Origin: an uncultured Pelagibacteraceae bacterium
GTDB taxonomy: Bacteria; Pseudomonadota; Alphaproteobacteria; Pelagibacterales; Pelagibacteraceae
Assembly: GCA_902524995.1 (NCBI GenBank)
Contig: CABZFJ010000001.1
Span: forward strand, 186,001 to 250,000
Direction: 5' to 3'
Length of the DNA stretch: 64,000 nt
The notes below the pieces were generated by a model that did no database searches, was not told the origin of the DNA, and worked only from the letters and a program-made list of their open reading frames with translations. This document shows, piece after piece, positions 16,797 to 50,999 of this stretch. The position numbers and the translations under genes are program-made. Each line of letters begins with the position of its first letter. The stretch's first letter is position 1.

Positions 16797-16871
16797 GCGG
16801 GCATAGCTCAGTGGTAGAGCGTCTCGTTGCCAACGAGAAGGTCGTGGGTTCAAGTCCCATTGCCCGCTCCA
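16797..16871 (+). tRNA. tRNA-Gly (GCC anticodon), CCA encoded
   Basis: GCGGGCA TA GCTCAGTGGTAGAGC G TCTCG TTGCCAA CGAGA AGGTC GTGGG TTCAAGT CCCAT TGCCCGC T CCA; full cloverleaf. Confidence 0.97.
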
Positions 16872-45887: not shown

Positions 45888-46208
45888 GTGAGTACTCAAA
45901 AAGCTAAATTTTCTATTGGAGATGTAGTTAAACATAGACACTTCGATTTTAGAGGTGTGATTTACGATGTTGACTTTGAATTTAATAACTCAGAGGAGTG
46001 GTATCAATCAATTCCTAAAAATGTGAGACCTAGAAAGGATCAGCCATTTTATCATTTACTAGCAGAGAATGACGAAATTACTTACGAGGCTTATGTGTCT
46101 GAGCAAAATCTATTATTCGATGACTCTGAAGAACCTATCAAACACCCTCTAATTAATGAAATTTTTTCAGGTAAGCGTGGATCAAGCTACTTCAAGCCTT
46201 CAAATTAA
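45888..46208 (+). CDS. hspQ: Heat shock protein HspQ (YccV-like)
   Basis: AKFSIGDVVKHRHFDFRGVIYDVDFEF; GTG start. Confidence 0.93.
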   Translation: MSTQKAKFSIGDVVKHRHFDFRGVIYDVDFEFNNSEEWYQSIPKNVRPRKDQPFYHLLAENDEITYEAYVSEQNLLFDDSEEPIKHPLINEIFSGKRGSSYFKPSN

Positions 46209-46276
46209 CTAATAGCCAATATTTAAACACAATTGTCCCAAATCTCTGTCATATCTGTTTGTTATAAAATATTTAA

Positions 46277-46330
46277 TTCTGATCAAGAGTACTATTTTTC
46301 CTCTATCTCCCTTTGTATTCTTGGTCAGAA
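46277..46330 (+). ncRNA. Candidate structured RNA element / 5' leader of ccmC
   Basis: TTCTGATCAAGAGTA (46277-46291) pairs with TATTCTTGGTCAGAA (46316-46330) as 15 continuous base pairs, two of them G-U, closing a 24-nt pyrimidine-rich loop. Confidence 0.5.
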
Positions 46331-46375
46331 AATTTTGAACAATTTTAATCTAAAATTTATGTGTTATAAAAAATT

Positions 46376-47083
46376 ATGATTAATTATTTCAATCCAAATA
46401 ATACTTTAAAGATAATTAATAAAATACAAAAGTATGTATTTGCGTTATTTATAATTGTATTGTTACTTGGATTAGTTGAAGCTTTAGTTCTTTCTCCTGA
46501 GGATTATAAGCAGAGTGACTCAGTTAGAATTATGTATGTTCATGTTCCATCGGCTTGGATATCACTAGGAATATTTTCAGTTATTTCCTTTCTTTCTTTT
46601 GGAGTTTTTGTTTTTAAAAATAAAAATTTTTCTTTAATAACTAAAAGTTTAGCACCTTCTGGTTTTGTTTTTAGCATAATTGCTTTAGTTACAGGATCAA
46701 TTTGGGGAAAACCAACTTGGGGAACTTGGTGGGCTTGGGATGCAAGAATTACTTCAATGCTCTTACTTTCAATTTTTTATTTGTTGTTTATTACTTCTTG
46801 GAAGATTGTGACAGATACTAGTAAAGCAGAAAAAATTAGCTCAATAGTAGCCATTATTGGTCTTATAAATATTCCAGTTATAAAATTCTCAGTGGAATGG
46901 TGGAATACTTTACACCAACCTGCTTCAGTAAAAATCTTGGAAGAAACAACAATTCATTCTTCAATGTTGACACCATTAGCTATAATGACTGCGGCATTTG
47001 CTCTATTTTCACTTTTGATATTTTTAATGAAATATAATACAGAACTGTTAAAAATTAAAAACAAAGGTCTTAATAGATTATGA
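46376..47083 (+). CDS. ccmC: Heme exporter/ cytochrome c maturation protein CcmC
   Basis: WGKPTWGTWWAWDARITSMLLL; VPSAWISLG. Confidence 0.96.
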   Translation: MINYFNPNNTLKIINKIQKYVFALFIIVLLLGLVEALVLSPEDYKQSDSVRIMYVHVPSAWISLGIFSVISFLSFGVFVFKNKNFSLITKSLAPSGFVFSIIALVTGSIWGKPTWGTWWAWDARITSMLLLSIFYLLFITSWKIVTDTSKAEKISSIVAIIGLINIPVIKFSVEWWNTLHQPASVKILEETTIHSSMLTPLAIMTAAFALFSLLIFLMKYNTELLKIKNKGLNRL

Positions 47084-47313
47084 TTGGTGAACTACTAAAT
47101 ATGAATGGATACGGTGTATATGTTTGGTCATCATTTATATTTACTCTATTTTCTTTTAGTTTCTTGTACGTGGTAGTAAAATTAAATTTAATTAAAGAGA
47201 AAAAGAAATTTGAGAAAAATTATAAATCACTAGATGAAAAGAAACTTGCATCAGTAGCTAAGCAAAAAACGTACAGAGAGATATTAGCAAACACTTCTAC
47301 ATTTAAAGTTTAA
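47080..47313 (+). CDS. ccmD: CcmD-like small membrane protein
   Basis: [26 protein letters not shown]; between ccmC and ccmE. Confidence 0.8.
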
Positions 47314-47324
47314 CTAAAATTCAC

Positions 47325-47747
47325 ATGTACGGAAAAAAAGTTAAATTTAGAGCCCTTTTTATTTTTTTAATTTTAATTTCATTAACTCTTACGATTTTTT
47401 TGATAGTCAAATCTCTTGAGGAAAACGTAGTATATTTTAAGTCTCCAACAGACATAAAAAACCTTAATGAAATCCAAAATGTTCAAAAAATTAGAGTTGG
47501 CGGAATGGTGAAAAAAAATTCTATTAAAATAAATGATAAAGAAATTTTTTTTGTAATTACGGATTTCAAAAATGAACTATTAGTCAACTTTAATGGATCT
47601 GTGCCTAATTTGTTTGAAGAAGGCAAGGGTGTAGTTGCTGAAGGTTTTTTAAAGGATAAAAGTTTTCTAAATGCTGACAAGATTTTAGCAAAACATGACG
47701 AAAATTATATGCCTCCTGAAGTTAGTGAAGCTATGAAAAACAATTAA
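47325..47747 (+). CDS. ccmE: Heme chaperone CcmE
   Basis: [45 protein letters not shown] (heme-binding H-D-E-N-Y). Confidence 0.96.
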
Positions 47748-47752
47748 TTTGT

Positions 47753-49633
47753 ATGTCTTATTATTTAGGAAATTATTCTTTATATATTGCTTTAATTGCA
47801 TCTGTTTATTTAATTTTTAAGTCATACTTGGATGCAAATTCAGAAAATAAATATTTAGATAAAAACTTTATTTTAATTACTTCAATACAAACTATAATGA
47901 TCATTGTAAGTTTTTTTAGTCTAGTTGCAGCTTTTGTAATTTCAGATTTTAGTAATGAAACTGTTTTTAACAATTCTCATACTTTAAAACCTCTATTTTA
48001 TAAAGTTTCAGGTACATGGGGAAATCATGAGGGAAGTTTATTATTATGGTTATTAGTTCTTTCAATTTTTCTATTTATTTTTTTATTAAATTCAAGATCA
48101 CAAGATACTAAATACAAACTTCTAACGATACTATTTCAACAAATTATTATTTCAGGTTTTCTAGTTTTTATTTTGTTAACCTCCAACCCATTCAAAACGC
48201 TTTATCCAATTCCTAGCGAGGGATTAGGTTTGAACCCTATTTTACAAGACCCTGCTTTAGCTATTCACCCTCCAATTTTATATTTAGGTTATGTAGGAAC
48301 ATCTATTATCTTTTCAGCTTCACTTGCCTCAATGATTAGTGGAAATATTGGAGAAAAGTGGGCAAGACATATTAAAAAATGGGTTTTGGTATCTTGGGTA
48401 TTTTTAACAATCGGTATTTTGCTAGGATCTATATGGGCATATTATGAGCTGGGCTGGGGAGGTTTTTGGTTTTGGGATCCTGTAGAAAATGTTTCATTAA
48501 TGCCATGGTTTTGCTTAACAGCACTCCTCCATACTGTAATTGTATTGCAGAAAAGAAATTCGTTTAAAGAGTGGACTATTATTTTATCAATTACAACTTT
48601 TTCACTGAGTATGAGTGGTACTTTTCTTGTTAGGTCTGGAATTTTAAATTCAATTCACACTTTTGCAAACGATCCATCAAGAGGGTTATATATATTAACT
48701 TTTCTCTTTATACTAATATTGATGTCTATATTAATTTTCTTTTTTAATCAGAATAAAATATCAAACACAGCCAAAGAGAATTTTATTTTAAGTAAAGAGA
48801 CTGCAATATTAGTCAATAACTGGTTTATGATGTTTTTTTTATCTGTTGTTCTTGTTGGTACAATTTATCCAATTTTTCTTGAAGTTTTAAATGGTTCAAA
48901 AATTTCTGTTGGTCCACCTTTTTATCATAATCTTTTAATACCTTTCTTAATCCCTTTTTTAATATTCATGAGTTTTGGCCCAAGTTTGAAATGGATTAAA
49001 GATAAATTAAAAAAGTTTAACTATAATATTTTAATTATATTTTTAGTTTCACTACTTATTTCATATGTCATTTTAAAAAAAACAGAGAATTCATTTTTGT
49101 TATCTATTCCTCTGATAGTTTTGAGCATCTATCTTTTATTAGTAACAATTAAGGATTTTTTTGTTAGTAAATCCTCGATTAGCCAAAAAATTTCACATTT
49201 TGGTTTTAGTTTATTAATCACTAGTATCTTATTGAATGGCCTTTTTTCTAATGAATTCAATTCAAATATGAAAGTAGGAGATGAAAGAATATTCAATGAA
49301 AAAGTTGTAAAATTAAAAGAAGTTAATGTTACAGATGTGAACAATTATAAATCTCTTAAAGCTAGTTTTGAAGTTACAAATAAAAATTCCTCTTTTGCTT
49401 TATACCCAGAAGTTAGGATTTACCAACAGCCTTTAACTATTACGAGTGAAGCAGATATTAAGACAACATTATTTTCAGATAATTTTTTAGTATTTAATAT
49501 TCTAAAAGACGATGGTTATTATAACGTAAGATATCAATATAAACCCTTAATGATTTGGATATGGATCTCAACTATATTTATTAGTTTTGGTGGTTTATTA
49601 AGTGTTATTAGAAAAAATGAGCAAAAATATTAA
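47753..49633 (+). CDS. ccmF: Cytochrome c heme lyase subunit CcmF
   Basis: WGNHEGSLLLW; AYYELGWGGFWFWDPVENVSLMPW. Confidence 0.96.
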   Translation: MSYYLGNYSLYIALIASVYLIFKSYLDANSENKYLDKNFILITSIQTIMIIVSFFSLVAAFVISDFSNETVFNNSHTLKPLFYKVSGTWGNHEGSLLLWLLVLSIFLFIFLLNSRSQDTKYKLLTILFQQIIISGFLVFILLTSNPFKTLYPIPSEGLGLNPILQDPALAIHPPILYLGYVGTSIIFSASLASMISGNIGEKWARHIKKWVLVSWVFLTIGILLGSIWAYYELGWGGFWFWDPVENVSLMPWFCLTALLHTVIVLQKRNSFKEWTIILSITTFSLSMSGTFLVRSGILNSIHTFANDPSRGLYILTFLFILILMSILIFFFNQNKISNTAKENFILSKETAILVNNWFMMFFLSVVLVGTIYPIFLEVLNGSKISVGPPFYHNLLIPFLIPFLIFMSFGPSLKWIKDKLKKFNYNILIIFLVSLLISYVILKKTENSFLLSIPLIVLSIYLLLVTIKDFFVSKSSISQKISHFGFSLLITSILLNGLFSNEFNSNMKVGDERIFNEKVVKLKEVNVTDVNNYKSLKASFEVTNKNSSFALYPEVRIYQQPLTITSEADIKTTLFSDNFLVFNILKDDGYYNVRYQYKPLMIWIWISTIFISFGGLLSVIRKNEQKY

Positions 49634-50147
49634 ATATTTAGGATTACTAATAACTTTAATAATAATTTTTATAATCTTGCTCAAGGGATTGAACGTATCT
49701 AAAAATTACTCAAACGAGAAATTAAAAAGTAAAATAGATTTTTCACTTAATGCAAAAAAACTATTTTCTGATGAAATAATTAATATTTCAGACTTATTTG
49801 ATAAAAATATTCCTACAGTAGTAAATATTTGGGCATCTTGGTGTGCACCATGTAGAGAAGAGCATCAGTTTTTAATGAAATTAAAAGATATGAACATAAA
49901 TATAATTGGAATTAATTATAAAGACAGTCCGAAAAATGCAAAAAATTTTTTAAGCTTACTGGGAAATCCTTATTCAGAAGTTATTACCGATAATGATGGA
50001 ACAAAATCAATAGAATTTGGAGCCATTGGTGTTCCTGAAACTTTTATTATAATTGGTAAAACAAATGAGATAATAAAAAAGTATATTGGTCCATTGACGA
50101 GCGAAAATTTAATAGAAATAAAAAAATTATTAAAAAAAAATGCTTAA
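49617..50147 (+). CDS. ccmG: Thiol:disulfide interchange protein CcmG/DsbE
   Basis: PTVVNIWASWCAPCREEHQFLMKL; start ATG 49617 overlaps ccmF end. Confidence 0.94.
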   Translation: MSKNIKYLGLLITLIIIFIILLKGLNVSKNYSNEKLKSKIDFSLNAKKLFSDEIINISDLFDKNIPTVVNIWASWCAPCREEHQFLMKLKDMNINIIGINYKDSPKNAKNFLSLLGNPYSEVITDNDGTKSIEFGAIGVPETFIIIGKTNEIIKKYIGPLTSENLIEIKKLLKKNA

Positions 50148-50499
50148 AATTATAAAATTAATATTACTGCTATATTTTAGTTTTAATTTTTCCTATGCTA
50201 ATGAAATGAATACTAAAGTAGATCAAATTACAAAAAACTTAAGGTGTTTGATATGCCAAGGTCAATCTGTTTACGACTCTCAGTCTGATTTTGCTATAAG
50301 TATGAAGCTTGTTGTAAAAAATAAGATTGATGAAGGTAAAGAAGAAGAAGAAATATATGATTATTTAAAAAATAAATATGGAGAATGGATTGTTTATGAA
50401 CCAGAATTAAACCAAAATACATTTTTACTCTGGTCAATACCTTTGATTTTATTCGCTTTTGGCGGCCTTTTAATTATTAGAAAAGTATCTATAAAGTAA
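50140..50499 (+). CDS. ccmH: Cytochrome c-type biogenesis protein CcmH
   Basis: NLRCLICQGQSVYDSQSDFA (LRCxxCQ). Confidence 0.95.
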   Translation: MLKIIKLILLLYFSFNFSYANEMNTKVDQITKNLRCLICQGQSVYDSQSDFAISMKLVVKNKIDEGKEEEEIYDYLKNKYGEWIVYEPELNQNTFLLWSIPLILFAFGGLLIIRKVSIK

Positions 50500-50513: not shown

Positions 50514-50999
50514 ATGAAGATTTTAATTAAAACTTTAATTATTTCATTTCTTACTGTCCCATTTTCTAATGCAGAAAATAAATGGAGTTTTTACACTGGC
50601 ATGTTCGATTTCAGCGATGATGGTAAGAGAGCAAATCTTTTCGGCGCCGAATATATAAATTTTAATTCAAGCAAAGATATTTTCTTAGGAAATGTTCAAC
50701 CTGTAACAGGCGCAATGATAACGGCTGATGATGCAATATATATTTATACAGGTTATCAATTAAATCAAAAATCTAATTCAACTACTTTTTATCCTAGTTT
50801 TGCAATTGGATATTATGACGAAGGAGATGGCAAGGACTTAGGTCACGAAATTGAATTTAAGACACAAATACAGATATTATTTGATATTTCATCCAATTCT
50901 GAATTAGGGATTTCTTATAATCATATTTCTAATGCAAGTTTAGGAAGCAAAAATCCTGGGGCAAATAGTTATATGTTTAATTTCACGAAAAAATTTTAA
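50514..50999 (+). CDS. PagL/acyloxyacyl hydrolase-like outer-membrane protein
   Basis: Signal peptide, beta-barrel-like pattern, ISYNHISNASLGSKNPGANSYMF matches PagL-type H-x-S-N motif; terminal F. Confidence 0.75.
   Translation: MKILIKTLIISFLTVPFSNAENKWSFYTGMFDFSDDGKRANLFGAEYINFNSSKDIFLGNVQPVTGAMITADDAIYIYTGYQLNQKSNSTTFYPSFAIGYYDEGDGKDLGHEIEFKTQIQILFDISSNSELGISYNHISNASLGSKNPGANSYMFNFTKKF

Follow-up and report, generated by a model that had tools for sequence, protein, structure and literature searches.

A conserved hairpin RNA downstream of hspQ in Pelagibacteraceae, a candidate trans-acting small RNA

Introduction

The alpha-r14 RNAs of Rhizobiales (NfeR1 or SmelA075) combine strongly diverged stems with a constant, C-rich, unpaired anti-Shine-Dalgarno motif, and their circuit includes a two-component system (PMC10746234; PMC3927594). 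The SAR11 hairpin RNA described here resembles them in its diverged stems and constant C-rich motif. However, the defining feature of alpha-r14 is three hairpins, each with an unpaired CCUCCUCCC (PMC10746234), whereas the SAR11 RNA has a single hairpin with CUCCCU and falls outside that definition; alpha-r14 also belongs to a different order and has no detectable homology to the SAR11 RNA. A second likeness is found in alpha-r8 (SisA-D of Caulobacter), the single-stranded C-rich core of which, UUUCCUCCCU, contains CUCCCU (PMC12559287). Two features set alpha-r8 apart from the SAR11 RNA: its core is not part of a hairpin loop, and there is a Rho-independent terminator downstream; the complete 10-mer is absent from the aligned SAR11 loops. 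ChvR of Caulobacter, compared here by description only, is likewise an sRNA of an alphaproteobacterium; the OmpR-family regulator ChvI activates it, and it pairs via stem-loops (PMC6237742). An activator of the same family may be postulated for the SAR11 RNA, although ChvR is 84 nt long, has three stem-loops and adjoins recF, in contrast to the one conserved stem-loop found here.

Structured RNAs in long intergenic spacers of SAR11 were also described (Meyer et al., 2009; Stav et al., 2019), and those presented in the main texts have other neighbours than the hairpin considered here. The main texts of the 2009 survey of P. ubique (PMC2704228) and of the 2019 survey, which covered SAR11 strain HIMB5 (PMC6429828), name neither hspQ nor ccm. 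The latter classifies 30 spacers in a supplementary table, in which the hspQ-ccmC spacer may be listed without a name. None of the 4227 covariance models of Rfam matched the hairpin, although for the window stretch E values as high as 5 were admitted; elsewhere in the window they matched only a tRNA gene (16797-16868). The SAR11 hairpin RNA is filed here as a new family, representing a kind of regulator that is already known.

Structure and covariation of the hairpin

The window is a 64,000-nucleotide stretch of a Pelagibacter (SAR11) genome of 1.12 Mb (G000), and its features are collected in Table 1. The sequence-only reading placed a long hairpin at 46277-46330, in the unusually large 167-bp gap between hspQ and ccmC (46209-46375) and 45 nt before ccmC; sequence, coordinates and distances are all correct. 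The 15 pairs, two of them G-U, which it described between TTCTGATCAAGAGTA (46277-46291) and TATTCTTGGTCAGAA (46316-46330) are present, and a sixteenth, C46292-G46315, extends them. Read as plus-strand RNA, the hairpin folds at -20.2 kcal/mol (z -6.5) and outdoes all 200 shuffles, while folding of the minus strand is much weaker (-11.6 kcal/mol, z -2.1).

Table 1. Features of the hspQ-ccmC locus, in window coordinates
Feature	Position	Strand	Basis or remark
hspQ (YccV-like), usual upstream neighbour	45888..46208	+	Pfam PF08755
Four half-sites, C/CA at 46217, 46228, 46239 and 46250, 11 bp apart	46217..46253	+	
-10-like box TATAAA	46263..46268	+	begins 14 nt before stem
RNA hairpin, 5' arm	46277..46292	+	folding, covariation
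Conserved loop motif AUCUCCCU, core CUCCCU, anti-Shine-Dalgarno-like	46305..46312	+	alignment
RNA hairpin, 3' arm	46315..46330	+	folding, covariation
Extended -10-like element TGTTATAA, possible separate ccmC promoter	46362..46369	+	
ccmC, ccmD, ccmE, ccmF, ccmG-like, ccmH (downstream operon)	46376..50499	+	Pfam, gene order
pagL-like gene, after ccmH	50514..50999	+	Pfam PF09411, tblastn

The covariation analysis of homologous spacers that had been proposed for this hairpin was carried out on 80 loci with homologous ccmC, from which the Pelagibacter spacers were aligned. Pairing is kept and compensatory changes are present. In 23 distinct Pelagibacter hairpins, standard pairs fill 96.4% of the pair cells, and both partners have changed in 11 of 17 pairs. 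The covariation score of 0.402 compares with 0.297 for shuffles and with 0.05-0.13 when the partner is slid. RNAalifold returned the same single helix, one conserved stem-loop, from the Pelagibacter spacers. Across other Pelagibacteraceae genera the stem sequence is completely different, e.g., GCCTAATTGGGG with a partner ending CAATTAGGC, or TGTCCAGTTTAGA with TCTAAACTGGACA. Compensatory changes affect 17 of 17 pairs there, in an alignment that was fitted to the structure and leans towards this result; nevertheless, a covariance model built on Pelagibacter (R1) recovers the other-genus elements on its own. The element is a conserved structured RNA, with compensatory changes beyond chance both in Pelagibacter and in the other genera: no shuffle out of 500 attains the score, and the slid controls lie far below it. 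Genome comparison indicates that it is the pairing that is conserved and not the stem sequence. The original observation was correct and understated.

The type of wobble found in the stems bears on the strand. Cells with G-U outnumber those with A-C by 63 to 4 in the Pelagibacter hairpins, and therefore selection acts on the plus-strand RNA; a minus-strand RNA was rejected on this ground. The same bias argues against a DNA-level role as a protein-bound palindrome, and so does the rewriting of entire stems with pairing kept, which excludes sequence-specific binding to the arms. Another version of this explanation takes the hairpin for the 3' end of hspQ mRNA, acting as a terminator. It gains some credit from the position directly after hspQ in nearly all genomes; however, the loop is long, a U-tract is missing and a terminator-like site was not found. 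In addition, in one genome (G102, locus L162) an insert with a methyltransferase-like reading frame parts hspQ from the hairpin, which lies far from hspQ there, its promoter block intact, 44 nt before ccmC. An hspQ 3' UTR or terminator was rejected for these reasons, and an element acting on DNA or at a 3' end is considered highly improbable.

Conserved loop and promoter-like block

The loop was described as CU-rich, with CUCCC and an anti-Shine-Dalgarno-like character. This holds, and the loop core proves to be conserved: of 48 aligned rows, a single one (L080, with CTCCCCT) departs from CTCCCT. The loop of a diverged Pelagibacter member (L169) reads ACCCTC. Across genera, the loop core and the promoter block remain constant while the stems are rewritten. 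Two local variations were also seen. One g6 genome (L155:426-600) carries a tandem duplication of the element's 3' half, with the loop motif and the 3' arm. In g7 and g12 (L182, L183, L186, L187, L188), a conserved AAACTTTGTCACATT stands directly 3' of the hairpin; it is complementary to the GACAAA with which the upstream block ends, and may form an alternative stem or be a half-site in inverted orientation.

The block upstream of the hairpin is promoter-like. Among 58 elements, CA is found at positions 0, +11 and +22 in 98-100% and C at -11 in 91%, followed by TA at the fixed positions +35/+36 in 86/97%. No TTGACA-like -35 element is present in the block at the right distance from the -10-like box. 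The hairpin begins where a transcript from this box would start, which puts the likely transcription start at about 46275-46277, at the hairpin base. Promoters controlled by the OmpR family are expected to carry direct repeats of a half-site, in helical phase, ahead of the -10 box, and the block shows this arrangement. CenR binds TGA-N8-TGA (PMC9275681), direct repeats of the same spacing, and the ChvI site is cited as N-GCC-N8-GCC in PMC9731502. Judged by its spacing, the block is a candidate OmpR-family activator site that overlaps the -35 region, and binding of such a regulator to the half-sites may be proposed. PhoR, RegB and ChvG are the kinases reported for SAR11 (PMC13198564). When the window's own genome was searched for a regulon with the exact 5' block, this site was the only match.

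Neighbouring genes and the relation to ccm

hspQ adjoins the element in nearly all genomes compared, whereas the gene that follows differs. In the window, the last gene of the ccm operon encodes a PagL-like lipid A 3-O-deacylase, and where ccm is missing this gene is the direct neighbour of the RNA. Six genomes of g3, g6 and g8 have the order hspQ - RNA - pagL, and the following 10 kb or so contain no ccm gene. The sequence-only reading had left open whether the hairpin is a cis-regulatory leader upstream of ccm or a trans-acting sRNA. The link to ccm is not supported: since the RNA, together with its promoter block, persists in three genera without nearby ccm and the association is not constant, a cis leader of the ccm operon was rejected by gene order, and the comparison favours the trans-acting alternative.

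A broader form of the leader explanation assumes that the RNA is the 5' leader of the next operon, be it ccm-pagL or pagL, in which the hairpin would stabilise the mRNA or the loop would be bound by a protein or RNA. A same-strand gene always follows the RNA in the genomes compared, and pagL, the last gene of the window's ccm operon, is next in the genera without ccm. No conserved terminator was found after the hairpin in the spacers, so that transcription could continue into the next gene. However, the downstream gene may be ccmC or pagL, the hairpin lies at a variable distance, from 45 nt to about 100 nt, ahead of the start codon, and the start codon region is unpaired in the predicted fold. 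ccmC also has an extended -10 of its own in many genomes: TGnTATA occurs 6-12 nt before its ATG in 17 of 26 distinct Pelagibacter spacers, against a mean of 0.4 and a maximum of 3 in shuffles. This suggests a separate ccmC promoter rather than proving it, because the spacer sequences are related. With these data an operon leader seems unlikely.

It is also conceivable that both functions are combined, in a mostly short, processed 5' RNA acting in trans with some read-through into the operon. A precedent is UpsM of Rhodobacter, a known leader-derived sRNA in an alphaproteobacterium (PMC5089854; PMC8625941). Such a dual element would explain the conserved hairpin, the loop and the missing terminator; however, it does not fit well with a downstream gene that is not constant, and we regard it as improbable.

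Distribution

Model R2 matches 316 of 397 Pelagibacteraceae genomes, or 122 of the 140 of good quality, in 12 of 14 genera. The matches are nearly all single per genome, as in the window's own genome, and almost always lie after hspQ. In the remaining two genera, g7 and g9, the element was recognised by eye (L182-L185); it is therefore present in all 14 sampled genera, 12 by model and two by eye. In twelve Pelagibacter genomes with no hspQ, a search run without a positive control did not find ccmC either, and an assembly gap fits these cases better than loss.

Within a class-wide sample of 385 genomes, matches were confined to SAR11 members and one genome assigned to another family (G603). Its contig C48 (L148/L163) carries an hspQ-RNA-ccmC locus with hspQ 90% and ccmC 71% identical to those of the window; as the contig holds such close copies of both genes, it is probably misbinned SAR11 DNA. 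Matches in G442, G444 and G590 were rejected, being without the loop motif or without the stem. No convincing hairpin was seen in the sister family f2, where a septation-protein-like reading frame comes directly after hspQ, and viral contigs gave no match to two patterns.

Proposed mode of action and search for targets

Judged by comparison of genomes, the hairpin belongs to the plus strand, its loop core is conserved, its promoter-like block is fixed and it is independent of ccm. The explanation that we consider probable is a free-standing, normally single-copy gene for a trans-acting sRNA, found throughout Pelagibacteraceae, activated by an OmpR-family regulator and pairing via its loop with Shine-Dalgarno-like sequences. 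In this proposal, an OmpR-family response regulator would bind the four half-sites spaced by 11 bp, at a promoter with no good -35 box, and would activate a transcript starting at the hairpin base. The stem would protect the 5' end of the transcript and hold the C-rich loop open. The loop could then pair with the G-rich, Shine-Dalgarno-like AGGGAG in target mRNAs, and this pairing would repress their translation.

The search for targets was based on AGGGAG, the complement of the loop core. Before ATG the motif shows no enrichment, with 76 vs 78 for the control. It is found near the start of metK and of a DUF4212-like gene. At metK (G000:C1:137698-137711, L215) it stands 5 nt before the ATG, and no Rfam riboswitch was found on this locus; metK is a possible target of the loop. 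The best start-site match, in a TRAP substrate-binding gene, was rejected as a target, the gene being present in 5 of 41 genomes and the site not conserved, and so was lipA, the site of which appears to lie inside the upstream gene. Dinucleotide shuffles predict 12.2 copies of AGGGAG for the window, which has five, one of them being the loop itself as read on the minus strand; avoidance of the motif in the window is possible.

Conclusion

A more far-reaching, tentative idea is that the hairpin is a core SAR11 sRNA with a four-half-site response-regulator promoter, which would link one of the few two-component systems of these bacteria to the translation of many mRNAs via a single anti-Shine-Dalgarno loop; we think it possible, if rather doubtful. 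A family-wide sRNA whose promoter looks activator-driven and whose pairing loop is constant offers a regulator that is concrete and testable, and the alignments and covariance models enable an immediate search of existing ocean metatranscriptomes.
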